DNA of 64,000 nt from Jiella avicenniae (GTDB taxonomy: Bacteria > Pseudomonadota > Alphaproteobacteria > Rhizobiales > Rhizobiaceae). The notes below the pieces were generated by a model that was not told the DNA's origin, did not search any database, and was given only the letters and a program-made list of their open reading frames with translations. Shown here piece by piece: positions 19,353 through 57,397 of the stretch (its first letter is position 1; the number at the start of each line of letters is the position of its first letter). Made by a program: the position numbers and the translations under genes. The DNA lies in assembly GCF_021390325.1 (NCBI RefSeq), contig NZ_JAJUWU010000010.1, positions 124,001 to 188,000 of the forward strand. Direction: 5' to 3'.

Positions 19353-19420
19353 TTTCGGCGCTTTCCTCTTGCCGGAAGGGAAAGGCTTGCGCCGCGTGTC
19401 GGAAAGCCACCGCCTGGCGC

Positions 19421-19503: not shown

Positions 19504-19509
19504 GCTTTT

Positions 19510-36995: not shown

Positions 36996-37871
36996 TCAGG
37001 CCCGGCCCTGCGGGCGCCGTCCTTCGGGCAAGAGTTCCGTCGCCGCCGCGACGAGACGGCCGGAGGGCGACCGCAATTCGTCGAGGATGGTGAAATGGTC
37101 GGCGCCCTCGATGGCGATCAGCGGCCCCGGAGCGCCCGCCGCGGCGCGCTTGGCGTGCAGGCGCATCGCATCGTGGACGAGGGCCGGAACCTCGCGGGAG
37201 CCGTAGGCGACGGCGAGCGGCTTCCGGGTCACCGGCAGGCGCAGCGGCGAGAGCGTCTCGATTTCCCGATCGGTGAGCTTCAGCGCCTCGTTCAGATAGG
37301 TGTCCCGGATCGGGCCGAGTTCGTAGACGCCGGAAACCGCCAGTCCCGCCACGACCGAGGAATGGCCGAGCAGCATCGCGGTCAGCTGGGCGCCCGCCGA
37401 CCAGCCCGCCAGCACGATCGGCCCGCCGATGCCGTGCATGCGGCCTTCCCGGGCGATCCAGTCGAGGGCGTCGCCGATCTCCGCGACGATGTCCGTCAGG
37501 CTGGCGTGGGGGGCGAGGGTGTGGCTCGGCATCGCCACCGACCAGCCGGCCTCGAGCGGCCCCTCGGCATAGGCGGCGAAGACCTCGCGCGAGTTCTTCT
37601 GCCAGTAGCCGCCATGGATGAAGACCAGGCAGGGGGCGTTCGGATCGGCGGCGGGGTAGAGGTCGAAGAGCATGCGCTCCTTGCCGCCATAGGAGAGATC
37701 GAGCTTGGCCGGATAGGTCCCGCGCAGCTTGGTGGAGGCGCGATCGCGCGCCGCCACCAGATCGGCGCTGTTCTTCACCGCCGCGTTGTTGTCGTAGGCG
37801 GCGTCCCGCTCGGCCTGGGAAAGTTTTGCCCAGACGTCCTGGGGGGCGGGCGCCGGCTCGGTCCCGCTCAT
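36996..37871 (-). CDS. Alpha/beta hydrolase with HGGYW motif (formamidase/esterase-like)
   Basis: This 291-residue alpha/beta hydrolase has the oxyanion-hole motif VFIHGGYWQKNSREVF, the nucleophile elbow GWSAG (VLAGWSAGAQLTAMLLG), an acid in the region after SREVPALVHDAM and a catalytic His in EGADHFTILDEL. HGGYW is characteristic of the kynurenine-formamidase-like esterase branch. No signal peptide. The ATG at 37871 overlaps the stop of the amidohydrolase gene as ATGA, so the two are co-translated and likely act in sequence on one amide or ester substrate. The substrate is unknown. Confidence 0.85.
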   Translation of the reverse strand: MSGTEPAPAPQDVWAKLSQAERDAAYDNNAAVKNSADLVAARDRASTKLRGTYPAKLDLSYGGKERMLFDLYPAADPNAPCLVFIHGGYWQKNSREVFAAYAEGPLEAGWSVAMPSHTLAPHASLTDIVAEIGDALDWIAREGRMHGIGGPIVLAGWSAGAQLTAMLLGHSSVVAGLAVSGVYELGPIRDTYLNEALKLTDREIETLSPLRLPVTRKPLAVAYGSREVPALVHDAMRLHAKRAAAGAPGPLIAIEGADHFTILDELRSPSGRLVAAATELLPEGRRPQGRA

Positions 37872-39151: not shown

Positions 39152-39198
39152 GGCGTTTTCCTTCGCGGCGGCGTGGCGATGTGGACGTGATGGGAAAA

Positions 39199-39214
39199 GC
39201 GAAGCATACTTCGC
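39199..39214. promoter_or_regulatory. Candidate MarR operator
   Basis: GCGAAG (39199-39204) and CTTCGC (39209-39214) form a perfect inverted repeat with a 4-bp centre, midway between the divergent amidohydrolase and MarR genes. This is a typical place for a MarR site. Confidence 0.5.
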
Positions 39215-39267
39215 ATTCCAGTGCAAGCGACCGGTCGCCCCATGCGCGGCCCGAGAGGAAGGACGAG

Positions 39268-39828
39268 ATGGCAGATCCCGGGGTGCCGCAGGGCGGACTG
39301 ACGCATTGGCCGCTGGACGAGCGGCCGGGCTTTCTGGCGCGGCGCCTCTATCAGATCCATGTCAGCCTGTTCAGCACGCTGTGCGCCGAGTTCGCCGTGA
39401 CGCCGGTGCAATACAGCCTTCTGTCGACCCTGGGAGAGACCGGCGAGGCGGACCAGACGAGCCTTGCCCGCGCCGTCGCGCTCGACCGCACGACGACGAC
39501 CGGCGCCTTGAAGCGGCTGGAAGGGCGCGATCTCGTCCGGCGCCAGGTCGGCACGCGCGACCGCCGCGCCCAGACCTGCCGGCTGACGCCGGCGGGGCAC
39601 GCGCTGCTGGTGGCGATGGAGGCGGCGGTTCGCAGGGCCCACCAGGCGACGGTGGAGCGGCTCGACCCGGCGGAGCAGGCGCAGTTGATCGCTCTGATGC
39701 AGAAGCTGGTGGCGGCCCATGACGGCCCGTCCGATGGAGAACCGATGGACGGAGAGGACGCGATGCGCCGTTTCGGCGGGGCAGGCCCCGCGTCGGCCGG
39801 ACGCGAGGAAAGTCGCCCGAACGGTTGA
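39268..39828 (+). CDS. MarR-family regulator (first of two paralogues)
   Basis: This 186-residue protein is a MarR-type dimeric winged-helix repressor. The helical N-terminus RPGFLARRLYQIHVSLFSTL, the recognition region LARAVALDRTTTTGALKRLE and the wing RRQVGTRDRRAQTCRLTPAG are plain. The ATG at 39268 is preceded by GAGGAAGGACGAG; a longer frame from 39181 would run through the operator. It is divergent from the amidohydrolase-hydrolase pair and convergent with the phosphoribosyltransferase. It is clearly related to the MarR protein at 52058-52594 (shared RPGFL.RRL.QIHV.LF, TPVQ.S.LS.L.ETG, LDRT.T). The ligand is probably a degradation substrate. Confidence 0.9.
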   Translation: MADPGVPQGGLTHWPLDERPGFLARRLYQIHVSLFSTLCAEFAVTPVQYSLLSTLGETGEADQTSLARAVALDRTTTTGALKRLEGRDLVRRQVGTRDRRAQTCRLTPAGHALLVAMEAAVRRAHQATVERLDPAEQAQLIALMQKLVAAHDGPSDGEPMDGEDAMRRFGGAGPASAGREESRPNG

Positions 39829-39896: not shown

Positions 39897-40664
39897 TCAC
39901 CGGGCGGGCGCGATCGTCGGCGGCCCGTCGTCCCCGACCGATGCGACCGGCCGCCAGCATCCGTTTTCCGTGCGCCTGAGCAGGGGCGTCGCGAAGACGC
40001 CCGCGATCTTGCCGGTGAAGCCCGGCAGCGCCGTCGCCACCGCGACGCGCCAGCGATCGGTCTGCAGCATGGCGGCGGCGACGACCACCGGTTCGACCCC
40101 GAGCTTTCCGAGCAGCCTGAGCACGGCGACGAGCGAGGAGCCGGTCGAGACGACGTCGTCCACCACCGCGACGCGGCGCCCGATCAGAAGCGGCACGAGG
40201 CGCGGATCGACGAACAGCGTCTTCGGCGTTTTGCGGCTGCTGATCGAGGAGGAGGGCTCGCTGAGGGCGTCGTCGTACCAGAACTTGCGGGTGGTCCCGA
40301 GCGCCACCATTCGCGGATGGCCGAGCCGGCGGGCGACGCCGTTCGCCAGCGTCAGGCCGAGCGTCGGGACGGCGACGACGATCTCGGCGCCGGCCCGCGC
40401 AACGATCGCGGCCATCGCGTCCATCAGCGCGTCCTCGACGGCGAAGCTCGCCTGATTGACGATCAGCGAGGCGACGGCGAAGCCCGCCTCGTCGGGTAGC
40501 GGACGGATCGGCAGGACGATCTGGCGGCCGTCGGGAAGGCTGGCGGGAAACGTCTCGCGATGATCGCTGCGATGAGGATCGGCGAAGCTGCCGGGCGGAT
40601 GCAGCGTCTGCCAGACCTCGGATGGCGCGACGGAAGATGCCGGCGAAGGCGTGTTCCCGCTCAT
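39897..40664 (-). CDS. Phosphoribosyltransferase-fold protein
   Basis: This 255-residue protein has a type I phosphoribosyltransferase fold. The PRPP-binding motif is RVAVVDDVVSTGSSLVAVLR at about residue 165, preceded by VAVPTLGLTLANGVARRLGH, the region that binds pyrophosphate in adenine-type enzymes. The N-terminal 40 residues (SEVWQTLHPPGSF, then ETFPASLPDGRQIVLPIRPL) are not standard. The ATG at 40664 overlaps the stop of the ABC ATPase gene as ATGA, so it is the last member of a transport operon. A salvage or activating role on an imported base or related heterocycle is a reasonable inference. Confidence 0.82.
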   Translation of the reverse strand: MSGNTPSPASSVAPSEVWQTLHPPGSFADPHRSDHRETFPASLPDGRQIVLPIRPLPDEAGFAVASLIVNQASFAVEDALMDAMAAIVARAGAEIVVAVPTLGLTLANGVARRLGHPRMVALGTTRKFWYDDALSEPSSSISSRKTPKTLFVDPRLVPLLIGRRVAVVDDVVSTGSSLVAVLRLLGKLGVEPVVVAAAMLQTDRWRVAVATALPGFTGKIAGVFATPLLRRTENGCWRPVASVGDDGPPTIAPAR

Positions 40665-44436: not shown

Positions 44437-46050
44437 TCAGGCCTCGAACTTCAGCGGCCGGGCGTCGATCTGGCGGTGGAACCAGAACTCGTAGCCGTCG
44501 AGATTTTCGGCCATCGCCGAGTTCAGGGTCGGCTGCCACAGCGGGATGCGCGGCAGATCGTCGATGGCGATCTCGATCATCCGCCTGACGTTCGGCGCAT
44601 AGTCCGGCGCGTCGACGGGCATCGGCAGCGTCGCGTCGACGAGCTTCTGCATTTCCGGATTGTCGTAGTTCGAGGCGTTGAAGAGGTTGCCCTTCAGATA
44701 GGAGAAGTAGAAGTAGTAATCCGGGGTATCGAGCCAGCCGCCGAAATTCTCGAGCAAGAGCGGCAGGCGCTTCTCGACCAGCGCGATGGTGCGCCAGTTC
44801 GCCCCGGGAATCTTCTCCAGCGTCACGTTGATGCCGATCTGGCGCAGCGAATCCTGGATCAGCGCCGCCGCCGGCTCGCCCCAGTCGGCGAAGTCGAGGC
44901 TGAAGGACAGGGGAACGTCGAAACCCTTGGCATAGTCGGTCTCGGCCAGCAGCGAGCGCGCCTTGTCGAGGTCGGTCGTGTAGGGGAAGGGCTGCGGCCA
45001 GCTGATGTCCTGCGGCGCCGTGCTCTCGCCGCCCCACAGCGGGACGCCGAGCCCGTAGGCGGCCTGATCGAAGAGCTGCTGATAGGGCAGCGCCCAGGCC
45101 AGTGCCTGGCGCACCCTTTTGTCCTTGAACGGCTCGAAGGTCAGATTGGGGCAGAGCGTGTGGATGCAGTTGGCGATCGGCGAGCCGACGACCTTCACGG
45201 TCTTGGAATCCTTGAGATCCTTGGCATCCTTGTTGGGGATGTCGAAGGACAGGGTCACGTCGCCGCGCTCGACGAGGGCACGCCGGGTCGACAGGCTCGG
45301 AACCTCGCGGACGATGACCCGCTCCATCGCCGGGACCGGGCCGCAGGTCCACGCTTCGTTGCGCGCATAGACGATCTGCTGGCCGGGATCCCAGCGTTCC
45401 ACCTTGAAGGCGCCGCCACCGGCGGGTGTGCGGTGGAGATAGTCGCTCGCCCAGGGGTCGGCGTCGGTGGCGTTTTCGAGGGCGAGCTTGGAATTGATGA
45501 CGATGGCGACGGGCACGCCGAGATCGGGCAGCGACAGTTTCGACGGCTCCTTCAGGTCGACCCGGAAGGTAGCCTCGTCGACGGCGACGAACTGAGCCGG
45601 ATCGGTGAACCCGCCGGCGCCCATCTGCGATTTGGGAAACCCGCCGAGGGCGAGCGCCCGTTCGAACGACCAGCGCACGTCCTCGGCCGTCACCTTCGCG
45701 CCGTCCCAGAACTTCGCGTCGGACCTGAGCTTGAAGGTGATCGACTTGCCGTCCTCGGCGCTCTCCCAGCTTTCGGCGAGTTCCGGCACGACCTGCGAAT
45801 AGTCGAAGGTATAGGAGCCGTCCTCGCGCTGATTGACCCCGAAGCTCACCAGCCGGTCGTAGACGTTGACCGCCACCTGATAGCTCGGCCGGTTGGTGCC
45901 AGTGCGATGGATGTCGAGACTGTTGATCGATCCGCCGGTGACGACGACGGCCTGCTGGCGGCCCTGCGCATGGGCGAGGTTGCGCAGAAAGGGAAGGTTG
46001 GCCGCGGCGAGGCCGCCGGCGGTGGCCTTGAAGAATGTTCTGCGATCCAT
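44437..46050 (-). CDS. Peptide-type ABC transporter substrate-binding protein (Tat-like signal)
   Basis: This 537-residue family 5 solute-binding protein captures the substrate in the periplasm. The N-terminus MDRRTFFKATAGGLAAANLP contains a twin-arginine motif (DRRTFFK) and a hydrophobic stretch, so it is probably exported folded by Tat. The mature part has GGSINSLDIHRTGTNRPSYQ, FKLRSDAKFWDGAKVTAEDV, DYLHRTPAGGGAFKVERWDP and VRQALAWALPYQQLFDQAAY, all typical. It heads the operon binding protein, DppB, DppC, DppDF, phosphoribosyltransferase, and is transcribed from a sigma-54-type promoter at 46146-46163. Confidence 0.92.
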   Translation of the reverse strand: MDRRTFFKATAGGLAAANLPFLRNLAHAQGRQQAVVVTGGSINSLDIHRTGTNRPSYQVAVNVYDRLVSFGVNQREDGSYTFDYSQVVPELAESWESAEDGKSITFKLRSDAKFWDGAKVTAEDVRWSFERALALGGFPKSQMGAGGFTDPAQFVAVDEATFRVDLKEPSKLSLPDLGVPVAIVINSKLALENATDADPWASDYLHRTPAGGGAFKVERWDPGQQIVYARNEAWTCGPVPAMERVIVREVPSLSTRRALVERGDVTLSFDIPNKDAKDLKDSKTVKVVGSPIANCIHTLCPNLTFEPFKDKRVRQALAWALPYQQLFDQAAYGLGVPLWGGESTAPQDISWPQPFPYTTDLDKARSLLAETDYAKGFDVPLSFSLDFADWGEPAAALIQDSLRQIGINVTLEKIPGANWRTIALVEKRLPLLLENFGGWLDTPDYYFYFSYLKGNLFNASNYDNPEMQKLVDATLPMPVDAPDYAPNVRRMIEIAIDDLPRIPLWQPTLNSAMAENLDGYEFWFHRQIDARPLKFEA

Positions 46051-46145: not shown

Positions 46146-46163
46146 ATGCAATCATCGTGCCAA
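46146..46163 (-). promoter_or_regulatory. Sigma-54 promoter of the peptide-type ABC operon
   Basis: On the minus strand the sequence TTGGCACGATGATTGCAT matches the RpoN consensus YTGGCACG-N4-TTGCW at every fixed position, with GG and GC exactly 10 bp apart. The start would fall near 46136, about 85 nt before the binding-protein ATG. The -12 element lies in the palindrome ATTGCATGCAAT (46141-46152). Confidence 0.8.
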
Positions 46164-46439: not shown

Positions 46440-47228
46440 CTATTGCGCCGAGTAGCGCAGCAGGAACTGCCGGGCACGATCGGTCTTCGGCCGGGTGAAG
46501 AACTCTTCGGGCGCCCCGCTTTCGACGATCCGGCCCTGGTCGAGAAACACCACCCGGCTGGCCACGTCCCGCGCAAAGGCCATCTCGTGGGTCACCACGA
46601 CCATGGTCATGCCCTCGCGGGCGAGATCCTTCATCACAGCCAGCACTTCGCCGACGAGTTCCGGGTCGAGCGCACTGGTCGGCTCATCGAACAGCAGCAG
46701 ATCGGGTTTCATGGCCAGTGCCCGGGCGATGCCGACCCGCTGCTTCTGGCCGCCGGAGAGTCGCGCCGGATACTGCCCCGCCTTGTCGGCGATGCCGACC
46801 CGCTGGAGCAGCGCCTCCGCCTCGCGCCGGACCTCCGCCTTGTCCCGGCGCTGCACGTGGATCGGCGCTTCCATGACGTTTTCGAGCACGGTCAGGTGCG
46901 GCCAGAGGGCGAAATGCTGGAACACCATGCCGATGCGCGTTCGGATCGCGGCGAGTTCCCTGTCGTTCATGACGATGTTGCCGGACGGGCGGATGCCGAT
47001 CCTCTGGCCCTTCAGGACGATGAAGCCGGCGTCCGGCTCCTCGAGCCAGTTGAGGCAGCGCAGGAAGGTCGATTTTCCCGACCCGGAGGGGCCGAGGAGG
47101 CAGACGGTCTCGCCCTTTCGGACGGTCAGCTCCATGTCGGTGAGAACCGTATTGGCGCCGAAAGACTTCGAGACGCCGTGCGCGGCGAGCACCACCGGCG
47201 CTTCGGCGTCATCCATGGGCGGGGTCAT
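46440..47228 (-). CDS. Polar amino acid ABC transporter ATPase (GlnQ/HisP type)
   Basis: This 262-residue ATPase belongs to the polar amino acid uptake family. Walker A is GPSGSGKST, followed by [20 protein letters not shown], the Q-loop in [20 protein letters not shown], the signature [15 protein letters not shown] and Walker [21 protein letters not shown], then [17 protein letters not shown]. These sequences are diagnostic for the GlnQ/HisP branch. Last gene of a four-gene operon; it starts 10 nt after the permease stop. Confidence 0.93.
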
Positions 47229-47238
47229 TGCAGCTCCG

Positions 47239-47892
47239 TCATTGCCGGGCCTTCGCGACGCGTCCGACGAAGGCGACGCCGGTCTCGATCGCCATGCAGG
47301 TGATCCAGTAGAGGGCGATCGCCGCGACGAAGGAGGCGAAGGGCACGAAATAGGTGGTCTGGATGGCCATCGCCGCCTGGGTCAGTTCCGCCACCGCGAT
47401 GATCGTCAGGAAGGCGCTGTCCTTGATGATCTGGATCGTCTGGTTGCCGATCATCGGCACGGCGGCGAAGAACACCGGCGGCAGGATGATCCGCCGCACG
47501 AGCTTCAGCCCGTGGAAGCCGAAGGCGTGGCCCGCCTCGATCGATTCCTTGGGAAGATTCGCCCAGGCGGCGCGCAGCAATTCGGCCATGTAGGCGACGT
47601 TGTAGACGATCAGCGCGATGAGGCCGGAGGTCCAGTTGCTCATCCTGATGCCGAAGCTCGGCAGGCCGTAATAGATCAGATAGGCGAGCAGCAGGAACGG
47701 CACGCAGCGCATCGCGTCGACATAGACGGTCGCGCCGATGCGGGCCGCCTTGCTGCGCGCCATCAGCGCCATGGCGAGAAGCGCGCCGAGGACGAGCGAG
47801 ACGACGGCGGCGATGGCCGACAGGGCGATGGTGTTGGCAAAGCCCGACAGGAGGACGTCGCGATTGTCCCAGACGATGGTGAAACCGTTCAT
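47239..47892 (-). CDS. Polar amino acid ABC transporter permease 2
   Basis: This 217-residue HisMQ-type permease has about five membrane segments. The family features are [40 protein letters not shown] and the coupling loop [20 protein letters not shown]. The ATG at 47892 overlaps the stop of the other permease (ATGA). It pairs with that permease to form the channel. Confidence 0.92.
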
Positions 47893-48539
47893 CGCAGCGC
47901 CTCCATTTCGGCGGCGCGACGGCGCTCGATCAGCCGCTGCGTCATGACGAAGACCGCGACGATCAGGCTGTAGAGGACGAGGGCGACGACGAAGGGCGGC
48001 AGCGGATCGTAGGTCCGTGCGCCGACGCGGGAGGCGGCGCGGGTGATGTCGACGAGGCCGAGGACGGCGATCGCCGGGCTCGACTTCACCTGCAGCGTCA
48101 TTTCGTTGACGAGCGCCGGCAGGGCCGAATGGACGAGCTGGGGAAAGACGATACGGCGGAAGCGCAGGCCCCTCGTCATGCCGAAGGCACGGGCCGATTC
48201 GAGCTGCTCGCGCGGAAAGCTCATCAGGGCGCCGCGCCAGATCTCGGTGTTGAACGCCGCCGTCGACAAAGTGAGCGTGACGACGGCGGCGGTGACGGCG
48301 CCGAGCGAGATCCCCACCACCGGCAGGGCAAAGAAGATCAGGAGCGCCAGCGTCACCGCGGGCGAGGCCCGGATGACGCTGACATAGACGACGACGAAAC
48401 GGTCGAGAACGGGGACGCTGGACCAGCGAATGAGGGCGAAGCCGAGGCCGAGCGGCAGGCCGATGACGATGCTCGCGAGCGAGATCGACACCGTGAACAC
48501 GGCGCCCTGAAATATGGCGTAGACGTCGTACCAGGTCAT
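47889..48539 (-). CDS. Polar amino acid ABC transporter permease 1
   Basis: This 216-residue HisMQ-type permease shows FTVSISLASIVIGLPLGLGF, YVSVIRASPAVTLALLIFFA and the coupling loop QLESARAFGMTRGLRFRRIV. ATG at 48539, 38 nt after the binding-protein stop. First permease of the pair. Confidence 0.92.
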   Translation of the reverse strand: MTWYDVYAIFQGAVFTVSISLASIVIGLPLGLGFALIRWSSVPVLDRFVVVYVSVIRASPAVTLALLIFFALPVVGISLGAVTAAVVTLTLSTAAFNTEIWRGALMSFPREQLESARAFGMTRGLRFRRIVFPQLVHSALPALVNEMTLQVKSSPAIAVLGLVDITRAASRVGARTYDPLPPFVVALVLYSLIVAVFVMTQRLIERRRAAEMEALR

Positions 48540-48577: not shown

Positions 48578-49432
48578 TCACTTGATGGCTTCCGGCATGT
48601 CCTCGAACGACGCGCCGAACCACTTCTTCTGCAGCTCGTACATCGTGCCGTCCTTGCGGGCCTCGAGCAGGACCGAACTGACGTATTCGACCAGCGCGTC
48701 GTTGCCCTTGGCCGTCGCCCAGGCGATGTAGACCGGTTCCGAAACCGCTTCGCCGAGTTCGAAGACGTCGGGCTTCTCGTTGACCAGCGCCTGGACGTTG
48801 ATCAGCGTGTTGACGACGGCGTCGGTGCGGCCGATGGCGAGATCCTGATAGGCTTCCGGATAGCTCTGATATTCGACGATCCTGGCAATGCCCGCGCCGC
48901 CGTCCGCCTTCAGCTTCGCGTCGAAGGTCTGCAGGTGCTTGAGCATGGCGCTGCCGGCCTGAACGCCGACGGTCTTGCCGCTGAGATCGCTCGCCGAGGC
49001 GATGCCGTCCTGTCCCTTCTTCATCACGTAGAAGCTGGTGGATTCGGCGACCGGGCTGGTGAAGGCGAGGGTCTGCTTGCGCTCGTCGTTGACGAGGACG
49101 GCGGTGACGGCCATGTCGTACTTGCCCGTCGTCACGCCCGGCAGGATGCCCGCCCAGGGGATGATGTCCTGCTCGATCTCGAACGGCGCCTTCTCGCGGA
49201 CGAGATCGAGAAGTGCGTTGTCGTAACCGCTCGGCTTGCCGTCCTCGATGAATTCGAATGGATGGAAATCGTCCTCGGTGGCGACATGCATCGTGCCGCT
49301 CGACTTGATCGCCTCCAGATCCGCGGCTTTCGCATCACTGACGCCGGCACCGGCCAGAGGCGCCAGGAGGACGGCTGCAAGCGCGAGACGCCGCAAGGCG
49401 AAGCGCGGAAGAAGATCACGGTCGAGGCGCAT
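48578..49432 (-). CDS. Polar amino acid ABC transporter substrate-binding protein
   Basis: This 284-residue family 3 binding protein has a signal peptide (MRLDRDLLPRFALRRLALAA, cleavage probably after SDAKA) and the typical mature start LEAIKSSGTMHVATEDDFHP, then FEFIEDGKPSGYDNALLDLV and KYDMAVTAVLVNDERKQTLA. The ATG at 49432 is chosen because AGGAG lies 6 nt upstream and the signal fits. In this family the guanidinium-binding residues vary, so the ligand cannot be named; amino acids and guanidino compounds are both possible. It heads the operon and is driven from a sigma-54 promoter. Confidence 0.92.
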   Translation of the reverse strand: MRLDRDLLPRFALRRLALAAVLLAPLAGAGVSDAKAADLEAIKSSGTMHVATEDDFHPFEFIEDGKPSGYDNALLDLVREKAPFEIEQDIIPWAGILPGVTTGKYDMAVTAVLVNDERKQTLAFTSPVAESTSFYVMKKGQDGIASASDLSGKTVGVQAGSAMLKHLQTFDAKLKADGGAGIARIVEYQSYPEAYQDLAIGRTDAVVNTLINVQALVNEKPDVFELGEAVSEPVYIAWATAKGNDALVEYVSSVLLEARKDGTMYELQKKWFGASFEDMPEAIK

Positions 49433-49574
49433 TGGGGGCTCCTGTTCATCAGGCTGAAAAGGCGCAGCCGGCGGGGCTGCTGGGGTGACGATCGACGCCG
49501 TGCCGAAAGGCGCCGTCTTTCGCCAGCCGGGCTGGCGTCGAGGGCGTGACGGACGGCCAATCGTAAGCATGCTG

Positions 49575-49591
49575 AGCAAGTGTCGTGCCAA
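49575..49591 (-). promoter_or_regulatory. Sigma-54 promoter of the amino acid ABC operon
   Basis: On the minus strand TTGGCACGACACTTGCT fits the RpoN consensus YTGGCACG-N4-TTGCW perfectly, with the required 10 bp between GG and GC. The leader to the binding-protein ATG would be about 130 nt. Confidence 0.8.
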
Positions 49592-49868
49592 GCCGCCCGG
49601 ACGGTGCCGGACGCGGCTGTTCCGTTGGAATCCCTCCAATCGCGACCGGAAGCGCCCGCTGTCGCCGGCCGACACGGTCGCGGCGGCTTCGCCCATTAAC
49701 TGGGCAACAGGCGAGATCTCTGCCTAGCTTTCAGGCGCAAATCGTCAGTATGCTGATGGTATCTGCGCTCTTGGGTCGGCGCCATGACGGTCGGCGATCG
49801 ATACGCGCCAAATGCCGACGGCAGGGTGTTACTTTCAGTGTGCTGCACAATTGCCTCGCTGCCGCGTA
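49592..49868. other. Regulatory space between two divergent sigma-54-type promoters
   Basis: About 277 bp with no gene. It contains two perfect inverted repeats, GCCCA-TTAAC-TGGGC (49691-49705) and TGTGC-T-GCACA (49839-49849), and an imperfect TTGGA-ATCCC-TCCAA around 49625-49640. These are candidates for enhancer-binding protein sites that could serve both directions. Confidence 0.45.
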
Positions 49869-49884
49869 TGGCCCGCCGCTTGCT
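49869..49884 (+). promoter_or_regulatory. Sigma-54-like promoter of the DUF1989-ureohydrolase pair
   Basis: TGGCCCGCCGCTTGCT resembles TGGCACG-N4-TTGCW with one mismatch and correct GG-N10-GC spacing. It stands about 55-65 nt before the ribosome site and ATG of the DUF1989 gene. Confidence 0.55.
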
Positions 49885-49948
49885 TGCGTCCCGCACGACG
49901 CGGCCGTCGCGGTCGCACCCATCCGATCAGCCATTCTGGAGCTTTGCC

Positions 49949-50581
49949 ATGACATCCCCCACCCGACCGGCCTCCGCCGCCGCATCGACCGAGATCGTTC
50001 CCCCCGGCGGGCGCTGGTCCGGCCGGCTGGAAGCCGGCGACCGGCTGCGCATCACCGATATCGAGGGCCAGCAGGCGGTGGATTTCCTCTGCTACGGCGC
50101 CGACATGCCGCTCGACAGGATGAATCTTCCGAACACGATCAAGCTCAACAAGTCGCTCTACGTGACCAGGGGCTGCCGGATCTATTCCGATCACGCCCGC
50201 GTCCTGTTCACGGTCGAGGAGGACAGCTGCGGCTATCACGACACGCTGGCGGGCTGCTGCAGCAACGAGAGCAACAAGCTTCGCTACGACGTCGACACCA
50301 CGGCGAGCTGCCGCGCCAACTTCATCGCCGAGCTGTCGAAATGGGGGCTCGGTCCCTCGGAGATCGTCTCGAACATCAACTTCTTCATGCGGGTCCCCTT
50401 CAAAGAGGACGGCCATGTCGTCATCGCCGACGGCATCTCGAAAGCCGGCGACCACGTGGTGCTGAAGGCGGAGCGGCCGGTGCTCGCGGTTCTGTCCAAC
50501 TGTCCGCAGGAACACAATCCGGCGGCTGGCGGTAAGCCGACGCCGATCGAGGTCGAGGTCATCCGCGCCGCTTCGCTCTGA
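49949..50581 (+). CDS. DUF1989 (urea carboxylase-associated family) protein
   Basis: This 210-residue protein belongs to the DUF1989 family, whose members accompany urea or guanidine carboxylase and include the carboxyguanidine deiminase subunits CgdA and CgdB. Diagnostic segments are DIEGQQAVDFLCYGADMPLD, LYVTRGCRIYSDHARVLFTV, GCCSNESNKLRY and VLSNCPQEHNPAAGGKPTPI, with Cys and His residues that bind zinc in the family. The ATG at 49949 is preceded by GGAG; an upstream frame from 49784 lacks similarity. Normally two DUF1989 genes occur side by side with a carboxylase; here a single copy is coupled to an agmatinase-like ureohydrolase 11 nt downstream. Its reaction is unknown here. Confidence 0.88.
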   Translation: MTSPTRPASAAASTEIVPPGGRWSGRLEAGDRLRITDIEGQQAVDFLCYGADMPLDRMNLPNTIKLNKSLYVTRGCRIYSDHARVLFTVEEDSCGYHDTLAGCCSNESNKLRYDVDTTASCRANFIAELSKWGLGPSEIVSNINFFMRVPFKEDGHVVIADGISKAGDHVVLKAERPVLAVLSNCPQEHNPAAGGKPTPIEVEVIRAASL

Positions 50582-50592
50582 AAGATCCCGTC

Positions 50593-51558
50593 ATGGCTGA
50601 ACACGGATACGCCTCGGGCCGGCTCAACCTTCCCTTCGTCGGCATCTCCACCTTCGCGAAAAGCCCCTATGTCGGCGACTGGGACGCCATCGAGGCCGAT
50701 GTCGCCGTCCTTGGCGCTCCCTTCGACATGGGGACGCAGTGGCGCTCCGGCGCCCGCTTCGGGCCGCGCGGCATCCGCGAGGCCTCGACGCTGTTTTCCT
50801 TCGGCCATGCCGGCGCATACGATCACGAGGACGACGTCACCTATCTCGACGACGTGCGGATCGTCGATCTCGGCGATGCCGACATGGTGCACACCGACAC
50901 CGCGACGAGCCACGCCAATATCGAGGCGGGGGTGCGCAAGATCCTCGCCGCCGGGGCGTTGCCCGTCGTGCTGGGGGGCGATCACTCGATCAACATCCCC
51001 TGCATCGCCGCCTTTTCCGATCAGGAGCCGGTGCATCTGGTCCAGATCGATGCCCATCTCGACTTCGTCGACGAGCGCCACGGCGTCCGATACGGCCACG
51101 GCAATCCGATGCGTCGGGCGGCGGAGCAATCCCATGTCACCGGGCTGACGCAGATCGGCATCCGCAACGTCTCCTCCACCGCCAGGGAAGGCTACGAGGC
51201 GGCCCGTGCCATGGGATCGGACATCCTGTCGGTGCGCGACCTCCGCCGGCTCGGCGTCGCCGCCGTGCTCGAGCGCATTCCCGCCGGCAAGCGCTATTAT
51301 CTCACCCTCGACATCGACGGGTTCGATCCCTCGATCGCACCGGGAACCGGAACGCCGAGCCATGGCGGCTTTCTCTATTACGAGGTGCTGGAGTTGATCG
51401 CCGGGCTGGCGGCGCGGGGCGAGATCGTCGGCATCGATCTCGTCGAGGTGGCGCCGCCCTATGATCCGGCGGAGGTCACCGCGATCCTCGCGGCGCAGGT
51501 TCTGCTCAATGCGATCGGCCGGATCTTCCATGCCCGCAAATCGCGCGGTGGCCTCTGA
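50593..51558 (+). CDS. Agmatinase-family ureohydrolase
   Basis: This 321-residue enzyme belongs to the arginase/agmatinase superfamily, binuclear metal enzymes that hydrolyse a guanidino group to urea. All ligand motifs are present: LGGDHSINIPC, DAHLDFVD and DIDGFDPSIAPGTGTPSHGG. The N-terminal FDMGTQWRSGARFGPRGIRE is typical of agmatinases. The family also contains guanidinobutyrase, guanidine hydrolase and metformin hydrolase, so the substrate is open. It starts with ATG 11 nt after the DUF1989 gene and is very probably in one operon with it, divergent from an amino acid ABC importer that could bring in the substrate. Confidence 0.92.
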   Translation: MAEHGYASGRLNLPFVGISTFAKSPYVGDWDAIEADVAVLGAPFDMGTQWRSGARFGPRGIREASTLFSFGHAGAYDHEDDVTYLDDVRIVDLGDADMVHTDTATSHANIEAGVRKILAAGALPVVLGGDHSINIPCIAAFSDQEPVHLVQIDAHLDFVDERHGVRYGHGNPMRRAAEQSHVTGLTQIGIRNVSSTAREGYEAARAMGSDILSVRDLRRLGVAAVLERIPAGKRYYLTLDIDGFDPSIAPGTGTPSHGGFLYYEVLELIAGLAARGEIVGIDLVEVAPPYDPAEVTAILAAQVLLNAIGRIFHARKSRGGL

Positions 51559-51621: not shown

Positions 51622-52005
51622 TCAATCCGCGGTCAGCGAAACATGCGCCGCGACGATCCGCCAGCCTTGCGGCATGCGCGCCCAGGTCTGCATTTGCCGG
51701 CCGATGCGGCTGGTCGCGGTGCGATGAAACAGGGTCGAGGCGGTGGCGAAGTCCGCGCCGAAGGTGGTGATGACGGTCTGCGAGAGTTCGCGCTCGAGGC
51801 CCTTGGCCGGGCGTGCGGCCCGGAATGCCTGGATCGCGGCATAACCATAGAGATTTTCCGACGCGCCGTAGCGCACCGTCAGGCCGCTCTGCCAGAACAG
51901 TTCGTCGAGGACGGCGACGTCGTTCGAGGTCAGTGCCGCCTCGTATCTTGCAAAGGCGGCCTCGACTTCGGCGACGATCTCCGGCCGGTTCACTTCGAAC
52001 GTCAT
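51622..52005 (-). CDS. HpxZ/AtzH-like SnoaL-fold protein (DUF3225)
   Basis: This 127-residue protein is a small NTF2/SnoaL-fold member of the DUF3225 family. It shows [60 protein letters not shown] and [20 protein letters not shown], nearly the family consensus. Relatives are HpxZ of oxalurate catabolism and AtzH, which accompanies the 1-carboxybiuret hydrolase of cyanuric acid breakdown. Both normally act beside an amidase (HpxY or AtzE), which is absent here. The ATG at 52005 has GGAG at the right distance. Convergent with the ureohydrolase; on the same strand as the MarR and molybdenum hydroxylase genes upstream. Confidence 0.88.
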
Positions 52006-52057
52006 GATCTGCACTCCGTTTTCGCCGTGGCGGTGCCGAGGCCCCCTCGCGTCGCCG

Positions 52058-52594
52058 TCAGGTGAGCCGCAGGGGGGCGCGGCCGACGTCGTTGTTGGCT
52101 TCGACCAGTGTGACGAGACTGTCGACGAAGCGCCGGCGTTCCTCCGCCGGCAACGACTGCACGGTCCGGTCATGGGCGCGGGCGGCGGCCGCCTTGATCC
52201 GCTCGAGCGTCGCCTGGCCGACGGTCGTCAGGCTGACGAGCTTGCGACGGCGGTCCTTGGCCGCGACGCGCCGGCGGATCAGCCCGCGCTTCTGCAGCCG
52301 GACCAGGACGTCGGCCGTGTTGGTGCGGTCGAGGCCGACCGCCTGGCCGAGGGTGGTCTGCTCGCAGCTTCCGGTTTCTTCCAGCGCCGAGAGGATGGAG
52401 AACTGGACCGGCGTGATGTTCTCGCCGGCGCATTCCTCGGCAAACAGCGCGACATGGATCTGGTGCAGCCGCCGGATGAGAAAGCCCGGGCGCTCGCGCA
52501 GGGCGGCCAGTGCCGGGCTTTCGGCGCTTTCGCCCGTAAAGGCCGGATCGTCGATGGCCGTTTCGGGGGAATCGTCTGAAGAAACCTGTGTCAT
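52058..52594 (-). CDS. MarR-family regulator (second paralogue)
   Basis: This 178-residue MarR-type repressor has the dimer helix [20 protein letters not shown], the recognition helix [20 protein letters not shown] and the wing [20 protein letters not shown]. It begins with an acidic extension. Start ATG at 52594; the palindrome TGATG-T-CATCA (52594-52604) overlaps the start and could be its own operator. It lies between the HpxZ-like gene and the molybdenum hydroxylase operon, both on the same strand, and probably controls them. It is closely related to the MarR protein at 39268-39828. Confidence 0.9.
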
Positions 52595-52656: not shown

Positions 52657-53820
52657 TCAACCGCGCAGCTTCGCCAACAGGGTCCGCATGCTCTTCGACA
52701 TCGTTTGGTAAAGGAGCCCGAAGCCGGACATCGGCGCGGCGTGAACCAGGCCCCGGCCTTCGGCGAGGGCCGCCAGGTTGTCGGCGAAGCGGGCGAGCAG
52801 CCTGTCGACGACGTCGGCGACGATGGCCGGGCGGCCGAATTGCGACAGCGGCCCTTTCAGCCGGTAGACGAGGGCGACGACGAGGACACTCTTCTTCTGC
52901 TGCTGGCCGGCCTCGACGGCAAAGCGCATCTCGCCTTCGCCCTGCGAACGGCTGACGGGGTCGCCGCCGGCGCCGCGGACACGGCCGGACCGGCGCGCGT
53001 CGTCGTAGGCGACGAGGGCGCGGCCCCGGAAGTTGGCCCGCATGGGCCCGATCGCGACGGTGAAGCTTCCCGTCACCGGCGCGTCGGGCGAGCCCGACGG
53101 CGTTTCCAGTGCGGCGCCCGGCAGGCAGCCGACCACGCTCTCGAAATCCTGAAGCAGCGCCCAGAGCCGGTCCGGCGCGATGTCCAGAGCCAGCCGCCTC
53201 TCCAGGGACACCCCACCGTCGATCCGCTCGGGGATCGGCAGCGACGTGGCGAAGGAGGTTTCCGCTGTCCTGGCAGGCGCTTTGACAGGTGCGGTCGATG
53301 GCTCCCCGTCGTCCTTGGAGCGAAGTGCCGGCCGTTCCCGCGGCTGCAGCGAGGCGGGCGTCGGGTCGGCGAGGACGTCCGCGATGGCCGCGACGATGCC
53401 GGCATAGCCGGTGCAGCGGCAGAGATTGCCGGCGAGTTCCTCGCGGATGCGCGCCTCGTCGGCCTCCGGCAGCCGGCACACGATGTCGTAGGCGGTGGTC
53501 AGCATCCCCGGCGTGCAGAAGCCGCACTGGAGTGCGTGGTGGCGGCTGAAGGCGCCGCGCAGCCGCGTCATCAGCGGATCCTCGCCGAAGCCTTCCACCG
53601 TCTGCACCTCGGCGCCGTCGCATGTTGCCGCGAAGGTCAGGCAGGAGCGCACCGGCCGGCCGTCGACCATCAGCGTGCAGGCGCCGCACACCCCGTGTTC
53701 GCAGCCGAGATGGGTTCCCGTCAGGAGAAGATCCTCGCGCAGGAAATCGGCGAGATGGGTGCGCGGCTCGACCTCGGCGGCATGGCGTCGGCCATTGACG
53801 GTCAGGGAAATGGCGGTCAC
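52657..53820 (-). CDS. Molybdenum hydroxylase [2Fe-2S] subunit fused to a CoxG/SRPBCC domain
   Basis: This 387-residue protein joins two modules. Residues 1-160 are the two-cluster iron-sulphur subunit of xanthine-dehydrogenase-family enzymes: GTHLGCEHGVCGACTLMVDG (plant-type cluster) and LQCGFCTPGMLTTAYDIVCR with GNLCRCTGYAGIV (second cluster). A Pro/Ala-rich linker follows, then at about 215-350 a CoxG-like SRPBCC domain (DRLWALLQDFESVVGCLPGA). CoxG helps recruit or mature CO dehydrogenase at the membrane. The usual state is two genes. The start is GTG at 53820 overlapping the FAD subunit stop as GTGA. Confidence 0.9.
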   Translation of the reverse strand: MTAISLTVNGRRHAAEVEPRTHLADFLREDLLLTGTHLGCEHGVCGACTLMVDGRPVRSCLTFAATCDGAEVQTVEGFGEDPLMTRLRGAFSRHHALQCGFCTPGMLTTAYDIVCRLPEADEARIREELAGNLCRCTGYAGIVAAIADVLADPTPASLQPRERPALRSKDDGEPSTAPVKAPARTAETSFATSLPIPERIDGGVSLERRLALDIAPDRLWALLQDFESVVGCLPGAALETPSGSPDAPVTGSFTVAIGPMRANFRGRALVAYDDARRSGRVRGAGGDPVSRSQGEGEMRFAVEAGQQQKKSVLVVALVYRLKGPLSQFGRPAIVADVVDRLLARFADNLAALAEGRGLVHAAPMSGFGLLYQTMSKSMRTLLAKLRG

Positions 53821-54647
53821 GACGGCATGTCCTCGTCTTTCGGTGCCGTCGCCGCGAGGCAGGCGCGGCGGACCGCGGCTGCGTGCAGCGCCAGGGTCGC
53901 CGGCGGGTTCGGCGCGGTGAGGCGCTTTAGCAGCGGCAGGACGGTCTCGGGATCGGCGAGAGCCGCCTGCGGATCGTCGAGGACGATCGGCGCCCGCTCG
54001 ATCGCGCCGACGACGATGCGGGTCTCGCCACGCTCGGCGTCGATCAGCACGGCGGCGCTGGCCTTGGCGAACTCGCCGGCCTTCTGGGCGAATTTCCAAT
54101 AGCCCCAGCGGGCGCCGGGGAGTCGTTTGCGCAAGCGGATGCCGGTGAGGACGTCGGCGGGTTCGAGCGCCGTCGACAGCGGCCCCCGGATGAAGTCGGT
54201 CATCGGCAGCGTTTTCGCACCATCCGGGCCGGCGATCACCACCTCGGCGCCGAGCGCGGTCAGCGTCACCACCCAGTCGGCGGCCGGATCGGCATGAGCG
54301 AGGCTTCCGCCGATCGTGCCGCGATTGCGCACGGCGCGATAGGCGATGCCGCGCGCGATGGCCGGCAACCAGCCCGGCGTCGCGTCGGCGACGTCGCCGT
54401 CCTCGAATTCGGCGTGGCGCAAAGCCGCACCGTAAAGCAGCGTGTCGCCCTCGTCGGTGACGCTTCGCAGATCGCCGGCGCGCGACAGGTCGACGAGCTG
54501 GCCCGGCCGGGCGAGCCGGAGGTTGAGCATCGGCCCGAGCGACTGGCCGCCGGCGAGGATCTTCGCCGCCCCGCCACCCGCGACGAGCTGCTGCCGTGCA
54601 TCCGCGGAGGAGGTGGCCGCAGAATAGTCGAAGGGCGCCGGCTTCAT
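53817..54647 (-). CDS. Molybdenum hydroxylase FAD-binding subunit (CoxM-like)
   Basis: This 276-residue protein is the flavin-binding medium subunit. FAD motifs are AKILAGGQSLGPMLNLRLAR and the second loop TIGGSLAHADPAADWVVTLT, as in CoxM. The N-terminus MKPAPFDYSAATSSADARQQ is typical. ATG at 54647 overlaps the large-subunit stop as ATGA. It passes electrons between the iron-sulphur subunit and the final acceptor. Confidence 0.93.
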   Translation of the reverse strand: MKPAPFDYSAATSSADARQQLVAGGGAAKILAGGQSLGPMLNLRLARPGQLVDLSRAGDLRSVTDEGDTLLYGAALRHAEFEDGDVADATPGWLPAIARGIAYRAVRNRGTIGGSLAHADPAADWVVTLTALGAEVVIAGPDGAKTLPMTDFIRGPLSTALEPADVLTGIRLRKRLPGARWGYWKFAQKAGEFAKASAAVLIDAERGETRIVVGAIERAPIVLDDPQAALADPETVLPLLKRLTAPNPPATLALHAAAVRRACLAATAPKDEDMPS

Positions 54648-57007
54648 GTTCCCTGTCCCTTCCGCTCGGCAATGGCGCGCAACACCCGTTCCGGCTTGAT
54701 CGGCACTTCGCCGATGCTGACGCCGAGATCGGCGAGCGCGTCGTTCACGGCATTGGCGATGGCGGCGGGCGGGCCGATGGCGCCGGATTCGCCGATGCCC
54801 TTCTGGCCGAAGCGGGTCAGCGGCGACGGCGATTCCATGTGTTGGATGCGGATCGCCGGGATCTCGGCGGCCCCCGGCAGGTGGTAGTCGGCGAACGTCG
54901 CGGCCATGGGCTGGCCGGAGGCGTCGAAGGCCATCTCCTCGTAGAGCGCCGTCCCGATCCCCTGTGCCGCCCCGCCGAAAACCTGGCCGTCGACGACCAT
55001 CGGATTGATCATCACGCCGGCATCCTCGACGATCACGTAGTCGAGCAGCCGCACCGAGCCGGTCTCCGCATCGAGCGAGACGACGACCGCGTGGCAGGCA
55101 TAGGAGAAGGTGCCGGTGTCGCGGGCCGGCTTGTAGGCCTCGGTGACTTCGAGGCCGGCGAGCTCGGCGCCTGCGGGCAGATGCTGCGGGCCGAGATACC
55201 AGAGGCGGCCGATCTCGGCGAGGGAGACTTCGCCCTGGCCGTTGACGGTGCGGGCCATGCCGCCGGCAAAGACGATCTCGCCGGCCGGCACCTGCAGGAG
55301 ATGGCCGGCGATCGTCTTGATGCGTTCGCCGAGCCTGGCGGTCGCGGCGGCCACCGCACCGCCGGCCATGACCGCGCAGCGCGAACCCCAGGTTCCGGTG
55401 GAATAGGGCGTCAGCGCCGTGTCGCCGTGAACGAGGCGCACCCGGGCGATCGGCACGCCGAGCTGCTCGTGGGCGATCTGGGCGAGCGTCGTCTCGAGGC
55501 TCTGACCATGGCTCTGGACGCCGACGCGGAGTTCCAGCCCACCATCGGGGGTGAGTCGGGCGCTCGCCTGTTCGGCGCCCGGCACCATCGGGATGCCCCA
55601 GCCGGCATAGACGGACGTGCCGTGGGCGCCCTGTTCGCAGAAGATCGAAAAGCCGACGCCGACGCGCTCGCCGGCCTTCTGCCGCGCTCTGACGGCAGGA
55701 ACGTCGATCGCTTCGACGGCGCGCCTGAGGGCCTCGGGATAATCGCCGCTGTCGAAATATTTGCCCGTGATGTTGGTGAAGGGCATGGCCTCGGGCGGCA
55801 CGAGGTTCTTCGCCCGGATCGCATGCGGCTCGATGCCGAGTTCACGGGCGAGCGCGTCCATCATCAGCTCCATGGCGAAGCAGACGCCGGTGCGCGCCAC
55901 GCCCCGATAGGGCAGGATGGCCGGCTTGTTGGTCGCCACAGACCAGGTGCGGCAGCGATAGCCGGCCATGCGGTAGGGGCCGGGCAGGATGCTGGCGACC
56001 TGCGCCGCCTCGAGGCAGGCGGAGAACGGATAGATCGAATAGGCGCCGGAATCGACGATCGCCTCGCAGTCGACGGCGAGCAACGTGCCGTCGGCGGCCG
56101 CATAGCCGGTGATCTCGTAGTGGTGCTCGCGGCAGTTGGCGTTGCCGGTCAGATGCTCGCGGCGATCCTCGATCCAGCGCACCGGCCGGCGCAGCGTCAT
56201 CGCCGCGAAGGCGACGAACACCTCCTCGCTGGACAGGATGCCCTTGTATCCGAAGCCGCCGCCGACATCCGGCGGGATCACCCGCACCTTCTCATGGGCG
56301 AGGCCGAGGCATTCGCAAAGCCCGGTGCGCACGATATGCGGCATCTGCGTCGCGGTGTAGACGACGAGTTGCTCGGCCTGATTGTCCCAAGTGGCGACGA
56401 CGCCCCGCCCTTCCATCGGCGCCATGCACTGGCGCGAGGTGCGGTAGGTCCGCTTCACAATCGCCGCTGCGCCGGCGATGGCGGCGTCGAAGCCATAGTC
56501 GACGGCGGTTTCCAGAAAGACGTTCTCGTCCCAGTGCTCGTGGACGAGGGGCATCTCGGCGTCGCGCGCCGTGGTCATCTCATGGATGGCGGGAAGTTCT
56601 TCCAGATCGACGATCACCGCGTCGGCGAGATCCTCGGCCTTCGCACGGGAGGTCGCGAGGCAGGCGGCGATGGCTTCGCCGACATGGCGGACCTTGGTTT
56701 CGGCGAGGATCGGCTGCACCGAGGAGCGAAAGCCGGGGAGGCCGGAATCGGCCCGAATGCCCTTCACGCCGGCGAGGTCGGCGGCGACGAAGACGTCTTC
56801 CCGGCCGTCCTCCGGCTTGGTGATCGCGCCGATGCGGGCATGGGCGAGGGGGCTGCGGACGAAGGCGACGTCCAGCATTCCGGGGAGCTTGATGTCGGCG
56901 ACGAAGCGTCCCCGGCCGGACAGGTAGCGCTCGTCCTCGAGCCGCAGGGCGGAGGCCCCGACTCCCTGCGCCGATTTCGCCCGCGCGTCGTTCAAGCTGT
57001 CATCCAT
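54644..57007 (-). CDS. Molybdenum hydroxylase large subunit (xanthine dehydrogenase/CO dehydrogenase family)
   Basis: This 787-residue subunit binds the molybdopterin-cytosine dinucleotide cofactor. It shows the N-terminal ALRLEDERYLSGRGRFVADI, the cofactor segments VGGGFGYKG and TGTWGSRCAVMAGGAV, and the C-terminal FGQKGIGESGAIGPPAAIAN with its catalytic Glu. The loop that reads AYRCSFR in CO dehydrogenases and YRGAGRPE in many form II enzymes here reads YRGVARTGVCFAME, so it is not a true CO dehydrogenase and the substrate, probably an aldehyde or N-heterocycle, is unknown. Start ATG at 57007 (or 57013), with CGAGG upstream; a longer frame to 57172 adds an Arg-rich stretch without similarity. 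Confidence 0.9.
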   Translation of the reverse strand: MDDSLNDARAKSAQGVGASALRLEDERYLSGRGRFVADIKLPGMLDVAFVRSPLAHARIGAITKPEDGREDVFVAADLAGVKGIRADSGLPGFRSSVQPILAETKVRHVGEAIAACLATSRAKAEDLADAVIVDLEELPAIHEMTTARDAEMPLVHEHWDENVFLETAVDYGFDAAIAGAAAIVKRTYRTSRQCMAPMEGRGVVATWDNQAEQLVVYTATQMPHIVRTGLCECLGLAHEKVRVIPPDVGGGFGYKGILSSEEVFVAFAAMTLRRPVRWIEDRREHLTGNANCREHHYEITGYAAADGTLLAVDCEAIVDSGAYSIYPFSACLEAAQVASILPGPYRMAGYRCRTWSVATNKPAILPYRGVARTGVCFAMELMMDALARELGIEPHAIRAKNLVPPEAMPFTNITGKYFDSGDYPEALRRAVEAIDVPAVRARQKAGERVGVGFSIFCEQGAHGTSVYAGWGIPMVPGAEQASARLTPDGGLELRVGVQSHGQSLETTLAQIAHEQLGVPIARVRLVHGDTALTPYSTGTWGSRCAVMAGGAVAAATARLGERIKTIAGHLLQVPAGEIVFAGGMARTVNGQGEVSLAEIGRLWYLGPQHLPAGAELAGLEVTEAYKPARDTGTFSYACHAVVVSLDAETGSVRLLDYVIVEDAGVMINPMVVDGQVFGGAAQGIGTALYEEMAFDASGQPMAATFADYHLPGAAEIPAIRIQHMESPSPLTRFGQKGIGESGAIGPPAAIANAVNDALADLGVSIGEVPIKPERVLRAIAERKGQGT

Positions 57008-57183
57008 CCGCATCGACCTCGGACAATCGTGGTGGAAACCGCGTCGGCGACGTCGCTTGCCCCTGGCTCGGCGGGCCCGGCGGGAGTGCATGTAGACCGC
57101 CGCCGTCGCCGGGCACAGCATCGACATCGACGGAACCGACGGCCCCTCGCGGTTCGGACCATCGGCCGTCATGCCAGTTTTTC

Positions 57184-57211
57184 ATTATACTGATGATTGG
57201 TATACTGACAA
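57184..57211 (-). promoter_or_regulatory. Promoter of the molybdenum hydroxylase operon
   Basis: On the minus strand TTGTCA (57206-57211) and a perfect TATAAT (57184-57189) are 16 bp apart. TATACTGA occurs twice in direct orientation on the plus strand (57186-57193 and 57201-57208), spanning both promoter boxes, and may be an operator. Confidence 0.65.
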
Positions 57212-57397
57212 GCAATACGAGTCGCTGCCTCTGCCTTTCGGTCCATGCCCTCGGGAGTGCCCGCGACGCCCATGGTGAGATGGAAGAGGTGCCGGACAGA
57301 TCGTCCGGCAGTGAAGCGACCGGGGCGAGCCCTGCTCCGAGCGGGATCGGCCGGCCCGTTGCGGCGCCGGCGGCGCAGAGTTTCCTCGCGACACGTC

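Follow-up and report, generated by a model that had tools for sequence, protein, structure and literature searches.

A putative dual-control switch combining a sigma-54 promoter and a MarR-type operator in a catabolic island of Jiella avicenniae

The region between a polar amino acid ABC importer operon and a divergent DUF1989-ureohydrolase operon in Jiella avicenniae is fairly likely to be a dual-control switch, in which sigma-54 and a MarR-family regulator, MarR2, jointly govern a nitrogen-scavenging catabolic island. This proposal builds on sites whose positions and conservation, like the RpoN and NtrC genes and the association of a palindrome with MarR genes, come from sequence and comparison, and from these we infer how the switch would operate. 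RpoN-containing RNA polymerase, driven by a global enhancer-binding protein that is most likely NtrC, would read the importer operon to the left from its site at 49575-49590 and, in this lineage, also the DUF1989-ureohydrolase operon to the right from the site at 49869-49884, and both operons would thereby respond to nitrogen limitation. MarR2 would act as a dedicated repressor that occupies sites at 49560, 49741 and, weakly, 49831 in addition to the CoxL promoter (57178/57193), and that departs once the substrate or an intermediate becomes available. The operator at 49560 would cover the -12 element and the expected start site of the importer promoter, and the importer would probably be on only when nitrogen is scarce and the substrate is at hand. 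All coordinates refer to the window, i.e. the whole stretch of 64,000 nucleotides that was analysed.

Genes of the island

The importer operon lies on the minus strand and consists of SBP3, a binding protein of the polar amino acid type (48578-49432; PF00497), whose NCBIfam matches fall below the cut-offs so that its substrate is not assignable, and of HisQ, HisM and HisP (46440-48539), open reading frames of which HisP and HisM were scanned and HisQ was named by its place and its similarity in relatives. On the plus strand follow the DUF1989 protein (49949-50581; PF09347), which stays below the cut-offs of UAAP1/UAAP2 (TIGR03425/TIGR03424; 176.7 vs 205.95 and 211.6 vs 284.7), and a ureohydrolase of the agmatinase family (50593-51558; PF00491), which passes TIGR01230 with 193.5 bits against a cut-off of 174.3 bits, a result that does not settle its substrate. 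Back on the minus strand are found an AtzH-like protein (51622-52014; PF11533, scanned as the longer open reading frame 51622-52173), the proposed regulator MarR2 (52058-52594; PF01047), and the molybdenum hydroxylase subunits CoxS, CoxM and CoxL (52657-57007), of which CoxL was scanned and the other two were named from their sequences. The same conserved island furthermore encodes, likewise on the minus strand, a cyclic amidohydrolase-type enzyme (37868-39151; PF01979/PF07969, NF006689 above cut-off, scanned as a longer open reading frame to 39226) and a phosphoribosyltransferase-family protein (39897-40664; PF00156, NF004689 above cut-off). A family-5 (peptide type) binding protein is encoded at 44437-46050 (minus strand; PF00496).

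Sigma-54 promoters and their conservation

Sigma-54 sites were described by the pattern TGGCAC-N5-TTGCW, i.e. a -24 element TGGCAC and a -12 element TTGCW with the GG and GC at fixed spacing. Upstream of the SBP3-HisQ-HisM-HisP operon the pattern is present without mismatch as TGGCACGACACTTGCT (49575-49590, minus strand), and upstream of the DUF1989-ureohydrolase operon it is present with one mismatch as the probable promoter TGGCCCGCCGCTTGCT (49869-49884, plus strand), in agreement with the original prediction of a perfect RpoN site before the importer gene and a near-match before DUF1989. A third site, TGGCACGATGATTGCA (46147-46162, minus strand), is likewise perfect, both here and in the Jiella locus L032, and is located upstream of the operon of the family-5 binding protein (peptide importer), which likewise belongs to the island.

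Site counts by themselves prove little, and it is position together with conservation that constitutes evidence for these sites. When up to two mismatches are allowed, 11 sites occur in the window against 16 expected, and with at most one mismatch the pattern is rarer in the genome of this organism than its reversed control (21+26 vs 57+56, i.e. 47 vs 113). Distinct perfect sites number six in 5.17 Mb (nine before contig duplicates were removed), and two of the six stand 3.4 kb apart in the window, at 49575 and 46147. Another is found upstream of urtA of a urea importer, which we count in favour of a role in the nitrogen response, and a further one upstream of dctP of a TRAP transporter, adjoining the gene of an enhancer-binding protein of the response-regulator type; the fifth precedes an operon that by our reading of its first sequence resembles an ABC transporter, and the sixth has no clear target. 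As to the duplicates, contig C45 opens with a copy of sequence from the window (99.975% over 15,964 bases), and C44 duplicates part of C49 (100% over 6491 bases); the C45/C49 and C44/C49 repeats are probably assembly overlap, and genome counts need de-duplication. A simple scan of 49433-49948 for promoters of the sigma-70 type found none, which carries little weight as only 0.1 would be expected by chance, and a simple scan of the intergenic region for terminators found none where chance would give 0.5.

For comparison, DUF1989 relatives were taken from named genomes (23 loci), and SBP3 relatives were searched in 397 genomes of the order, with matches in 9 genomes, its own included. The 23 SBP3 loci counted below are the window, 14 loci found via DUF1989 and 8 found via SBP3, all with an identity of at least 45%, and those with names fall within Rhizobiales and Burkholderiales; rows below 45%, including L047 with an SBP3 of 41%, were left out before counting, and L073, G027 and G102 were taken as the same genome as L033 and counted once. 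In counts that are not independent, since the loci are related, a sigma-54 site with no more than one mismatch occurs within 420 bases of the SBP3 start in 18 of the 23 loci, alpha- and beta-proteobacterial alike (12/14 found via DUF1989, 5/8 found via SBP3, and the window), and one with at most two mismatches in 21, against 76 and 214 of 3400 random 420-mers, respectively, which were drawn from 34 loci that include the SBP3 loci themselves. The two loci in which no site with at most two mismatches was found in the 420 bases upstream of SBP3 are L113 and L119. In L047, a perfect site points away from both SBP3 and DUF1989. In an alignment of three species the block of importer promoter and operator is, judged by eye, the longest near-invariant stretch. 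Sigma-54 control of the importer is thus strongly suggested by the conservation of its site.

For the DUF1989 operon the corresponding evidence is moderate, and makes control by sigma-54 probable in this lineage. The near-match keeps its place 77-80 nucleotides before the DUF1989 start, being found at -77 with one mismatch in the Jiella locus L032, where its spacer is also identical, and at -79 with two mismatches in the Aurantimonas locus L033. A site with two mismatches is furthermore found at -82 in one Burkholderiales metagenome-assembled genome (MAG). In Burkholderia-type loci no sigma-54 site was found before DUF1989 and the palindrome described below stands there alone, and one might therefore suppose that the importer promoter is real but the near-match a product of chance, the operon having a different promoter that, as in those loci, answers to MarR2 only. 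We regard this as unlikely, even though the genome as a whole shows no enrichment of sites with one mismatch or none, because the distance to the start is the same in three genomes, the spacer is unchanged in Jiella, and the chance of meeting such a site is about 0.3% per 116-mer (0.29% of 20,000 random draws from the window). The predicted sigma-54 control of both operons consequently appears well founded for the importer and moderately so for DUF1989 in this lineage, and does not extend to the DUF1989 genes of Burkholderia-type loci.

The predicted link between importer and DUF1989 is borne out by the arrangement of the genes. Of the 23 SBP3 loci, 8 (L034, L035, L036, L040, L113, L115, L117 and L118) have DUF1989 on the importer's strand and downstream of it, 11 have it divergent, and for 4 the sequence fetched yielded no DUF1989 gene; in the 8 loci found via SBP3, which are the sole subset unbiased with respect to this linkage, DUF1989 is nearby in 4. 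Where the two are on the same strand, the importer promoter could serve DUF1989 as well. In L034 and L035, a site with one mismatch faces CoxL (2473-2488 and 2490-2505, respectively, minus strand), which may place the molybdenum hydroxylase operon of these two loci under sigma-54 control.

Palindromic operators and the MarR regulator

The upstream regions of the relatives have a palindrome in common, with the consensus TTCGTCAGTATACTGACGAA, and putative copies of this operator are found in two intergenic regions of the island. O1 (49560-49579) lies over the -12 element and the expected start site of the importer promoter, O2 (49741-49760) between both promoters, and O3 (49831-49850), a weak copy with a score of 10.0, upstream of DUF1989; the counterparts of O3 in L032 and L033, 117-118 nucleotides before the start, score higher. 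O4 (57178-57197) and the overlapping O5 (57193-57212) are found upstream of the CoxL-CoxM-CoxS operon, and in L032 a pair of copies likewise precedes CoxL. The placement of O1 over the promoter is repeated in L032, L033 and L112, the last of which was used for no matrix.

Building a matrix iteratively led to AT-rich words contributed by AT-rich loci, and in its place we used 20 hand-picked sites and a matrix of 13 beta-proteobacterial copies only. With the latter, the top four places in the 64-kb window are 49560, 49741, 57178 and 57193, in this order, with scores of 18.9, 15.3, 13.8 and 11.8, and these exceed 40, 39, 37 and about half, respectively, of 40 shuffle maxima (median 11.5, highest 15.7). 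The fourth score is weak, but all four top places fall within two intergenic regions of one island, which we take as an argument for the operators nonetheless. This test is not blind, since the 13 beta copies were picked with a motif first seen in the window and its relatives. When alpha copies are added, with a training set that then includes close relatives, the scores become 22.2, 21.9, 22.4 and 17.8, and O4 has the highest score in the window. An unseeded motif search on seven beta intergenic regions alone is blind but weaker than the beta-matrix test, and it returned the operator as motifs 1 and 2 and the sigma-54 site as motif 3. Applied to the window, motif 3 ranks 49573 first and 46145 second, and motif 2 has 49561 in first place, 57196 in second and 49832 in fourth; motif 1 places 57192 third, after 49909 and 3030, neither of which is an operator.

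The core TCAGYATRCTGA occurs in perfect form in the genome only at 49745-49756, within O2, and in the contig duplicate of this site. The 30-nucleotide composite of promoter and operator was found in 2 of the 397 genomes of the order, namely this one and G185, which has two, with Jiella and Aurantimonas genomes not among the rows of the search, and its reversed control gave none among the matches listed. The second G185 composite (L124, 11271-11301) is located upstream of an ABC transporter with genes for an alpha/beta hydrolase, an aldehyde dehydrogenase and a GMC oxidoreductase.

Of the 23 SBP3 loci, 13 have a gene of the MarR1/MarR2 family within the sequence fetched, which for L034 and L035 was extended by the adjacent stretches L085 and L084. 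A palindrome with a score of at least 13.5 is found within 420 bases of SBP3 in all 13 loci with such a gene and in none of the 10 loci without, at a threshold that was set after the scores were seen and that L039 passes narrowly (13.9); Fisher's test gives p 9e-7, a value that ignores both relatedness and the late choice of threshold. A score of 14 is reached by 90 of 3400 random 420-mers. The sequence fetched contains CoxL for 12 of the 13 MarR loci, that of L041 ending early, and for 2 of the 10 others (L036 and L050; a 27% match in L119 was not counted). Most simply, then, the palindrome would be the operator of a MarR repressor, and in this genome we infer MarR2 to be the one that binds it. 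The main alternative to MarR2 is its paralogue in the island, MarR1 (about 39181-39828), which could share the operators or own them.

A palindrome-like sequence, AAGCGAAGCATACTTCGCAT (39197-39216), is furthermore found upstream of the amidohydrolase and MarR1 genes and is identical in the Aurantimonas locus L033; it is perhaps a site of MarR1.

The ureohydrolase and the nature of the substrate

The genes around CoxL vary between loci, and this applies to the amidohydrolase, DUF1989, ureohydrolase, AtzH, phosphoribosyltransferase and a Rieske protein. AllG is found in L041, L042, L044, L045, L084 and L085 (by clustering, with Pfam run on L044) and in L112, and an amidase in L044 and L047. The ureohydrolase itself appears to be a variable passenger of the island. 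It is missing from the Jiella locus L032, in which the gene order is otherwise the same; it adjoins DUF1989 in the window and in Aurantimonas, lies about 12 kb off in Pseudolabrys and in a Rhodopseudomonas MAG, and is present as a shorter match in the Pararobbsia locus. At a threshold of E 1e-60, 8 of 20 DUF1989 genomes have a ureohydrolase match and 12 have none, and the eight matches comprise six of 77-90% over nearly the full length, one of 80% over 183 residues and one of 41%. In a separate search of 101 genomes of the family, ureohydrolase relatives were found in 20 genomes.

The original prediction was that one nitrogen-rich, probably guanidino, compound is imported and hydrolysed, and in a stricter form of this notion the whole system would serve to take up and hydrolyse a simple guanidino compound (guanidine or a guanidino acid). 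Ureohydrolase substrates typically contain a guanidine group, as stated in a passage of PMC11410670, and besides the neighbourhoods in Aurantimonas, Pseudolabrys, Rhodopseudomonas and Pararobbsia, where the enzyme is retained, a close ureohydrolase orthologue in L055 follows another polar amino acid importer. Yet the enzyme is missing from the Jiella genome and from most beta genomes searched, where the importer, DUF1989 and mostly CoxL and MarR stay. The ureohydrolase, moreover, lacks the residue by which the guanidinase GdmH is recognised: guanidinases, to which we take PDB chains 9fek and 7esr to belong, are recognised by a Thr and a Trp that correspond to T105 and W313 of N. inopinata, and here Thr254 (GTGT in place of GTGW) stands where, by our placement from the spacing to the metal-binding Asp pair, Trp should be. 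No guanidine riboswitch was found in the window, and the molybdenum hydroxylase, the cyclic amidohydrolase and AtzH, with AllG and amidase elsewhere, point instead to a heterocycle or ureide. A simple guanidino compound as the purpose of the system is accordingly rather improbable, and the guanidino part of the prediction is weakened; judging from the family names, a heterocycle or cyclic ureide is the more likely imported compound.

In L055 (4025-8985), the orthologue referred to above (82%) lies directly after the importer and beside a LysR-family gene, and no sigma-54 site with at most two mismatches was found in this stretch. The sole riboswitch in the window is a TPP riboswitch (RF00059, Rfam; 19409-19508, minus strand), which is far from the control region and unrelated to it; riboswitch control of the region was rejected with this distant element as the only one found.

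The activator

RpoN and enhancer-binding proteins are encoded in the genome, which has one RpoN match and eight PF00158 matches, of which four are strong: NtrC and NtrX, both above the NCBIfam cut-offs, one protein beside dctP and one elsewhere. With four enhancer-binding proteins as queries no enhancer-binding protein gene was found in the window, nor were any found in L032-L073, L084-L089, L112-L119 and L125, except in L051 (2051-8003; Hansschlegelia), where a DUF1989 gene lies between ntrC and ntrX matches. The NtrC-type site of E. coli is TGCACCA-N3-TGGTGCA, and in the importer region of the window the best match to it agrees in 8 of 14 positions (p about 0.99), although NtrC of alpha-proteobacteria may prefer another sequence; among 27 regions scored, only L037:8447 reached p 0.005. 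Half-sites of the NtrC type (GGTGC/GCACC) are enriched upstream of the importer promoter in eight beta loci (21 vs 6.6 at random; 0/1000 draws) and in four representative beta loci (12 vs 3.5; 0/1000 draws), and not in the window and the other alpha regions (12 vs 8.6, p 0.15), and a search for a common alpha enhancer motif by counting 7-mers yielded GC-rich words only. In L050, three copies of GCACCAAWAT, similar to NtrC sites, precede the sigma-54 site of SBP3. NtrC is the most likely activator, in this genome on grounds of function and exclusion.

The original prediction had also proposed that an enhancer-binding protein acts in both directions from two inverted repeats between the promoters, GCCCA-TTAAC-TGGGC (49691-49705) and TGTGC-T-GCACA (49839-49849). 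Both have arms of 5 bp each, and by our own estimate chance alone would give several such repeats in 516 bp. The former is altered in the Jiella and Aurantimonas loci L032 and L033 and is by eye without counterpart in L112, and the latter sits within O3, the weak copy of the conserved palindrome, which is most simply a MarR operator. This part of the prediction was consequently abandoned: an enhancer-binding protein at these repeats was rejected on the alteration of 49691-49705 in the relatives, and an enhancer site may still lie there.

In another variant there is no repressor at all, and both operons are activated by a single enhancer-binding protein sitting on the palindromes between their promoters. 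This would suit O2, whose distance upstream is about 150 bp for one promoter and 110 bp for the other, values that are usual for enhancers, and there is a gene of a GAF-domain enhancer-binding protein about 3.7 kb from the second G185 composite (L124). The variant is nonetheless quite improbable given that O1 overlaps the promoter in the window, L032, L033 and L112, as befits a repressor, that the palindrome tracks with MarR genes, that the searched stretches other than L051 gave no enhancer-binding protein gene, and that in the window and L032 the palindrome precedes CoxL at places that lack a sigma-54 site even when two mismatches are allowed.

Discussion

Control of the importer by RpoN is of a known kind, and what varies here is the MarR-type operator overlapping a conserved sigma-54 promoter, together with the island that has this operator in common. 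We take COG0834, COG0765 and COG1126 to be the groups of SBP3, HisQ/M and HisP. In alpha-, beta- and gamma-Proteobacteria these three groups, among others, are enriched for sigma-54 control, and in Bacillota the same is the case for arginase/agmatinase, according to passages of PMC12316311. The present importer resembles the polar amino acid ABC importers controlled by NtrC and RpoN in having a sigma-54 promoter upstream, but differs from them in that this promoter is overlapped by a MarR-type operator common to the molybdenum hydroxylase operon and in that an NtrC site is not recognisable in this genome. The short palindrome, its several copies, the regulator gene within the island and the overlap with a promoter are likewise reminiscent of MarR-family catabolic repressors with several targets. 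Such repressors usually sit on sigma-70 promoters, whereas the promoter targeted at the importer is of the sigma-54 type. No report of composite sigma-54/MarR control of such importers was met in the open-licence PMC literature.

Among the enzymes, the DUF1989 protein shares its family with the guanidine carboxylase pathway, of which the carboxyguanidine deiminase CgdAB is named as DUF1989 in a passage of PMC11271267, and L034 and L035 have two further DUF1989 genes directly downstream; unlike that pathway, however, the present island has one DUF1989 gene, and this is below the UAAP1/UAAP2 cut-offs. The ureohydrolase is similarly like GdmH and other ureohydrolases in its PF00491 domain and its score above the agmatinase equivalog cut-off, and unlike GdmH in having GTGT rather than GTGW at the position diagnostic of guanidinases. 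In the open-licence PMC literature we found no paper combining DUF1989 with sigma-54 or with a molybdenum hydroxylase, and none joining guanidine, carboxyguanidine deiminase, an ABC transporter and xanthine dehydrogenase.

To our knowledge, most DUF1989 proteins and many agmatinase-like ureohydrolases still lack an assigned substrate. The conserved control region narrows the search, as it ties the DUF1989 gene to a single importer, a single molybdenum hydroxylase operon and a single MarR regulator, so that the ligand of SBP3, the compound inducing MarR2 and the substrate of the enzymes should fall in one pathway. The region furthermore offers a clean test of the action of a repressor on a sigma-54 promoter. 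More tentatively, the island may represent a hitherto undescribed catabolic pathway for a nitrogen-rich heterocycle or cyclic ureide in Rhizobiales and Burkholderiales, with its importer under an AND gate, in the form of a sigma-54 promoter covered by a MarR operator, and with modules exchanged around a core. If this is true, nitrogen starvation would be sensed via the sigma-54 promoter and the substrate via the MarR operator, the core would consist of the importer, CoxLMS, the amidohydrolase and MarR, and DUF1989, the ureohydrolase, AtzH, amidase and AllG would each be present or absent, such that the exchanged modules would give several ways to take nitrogen from the ring-opened product.
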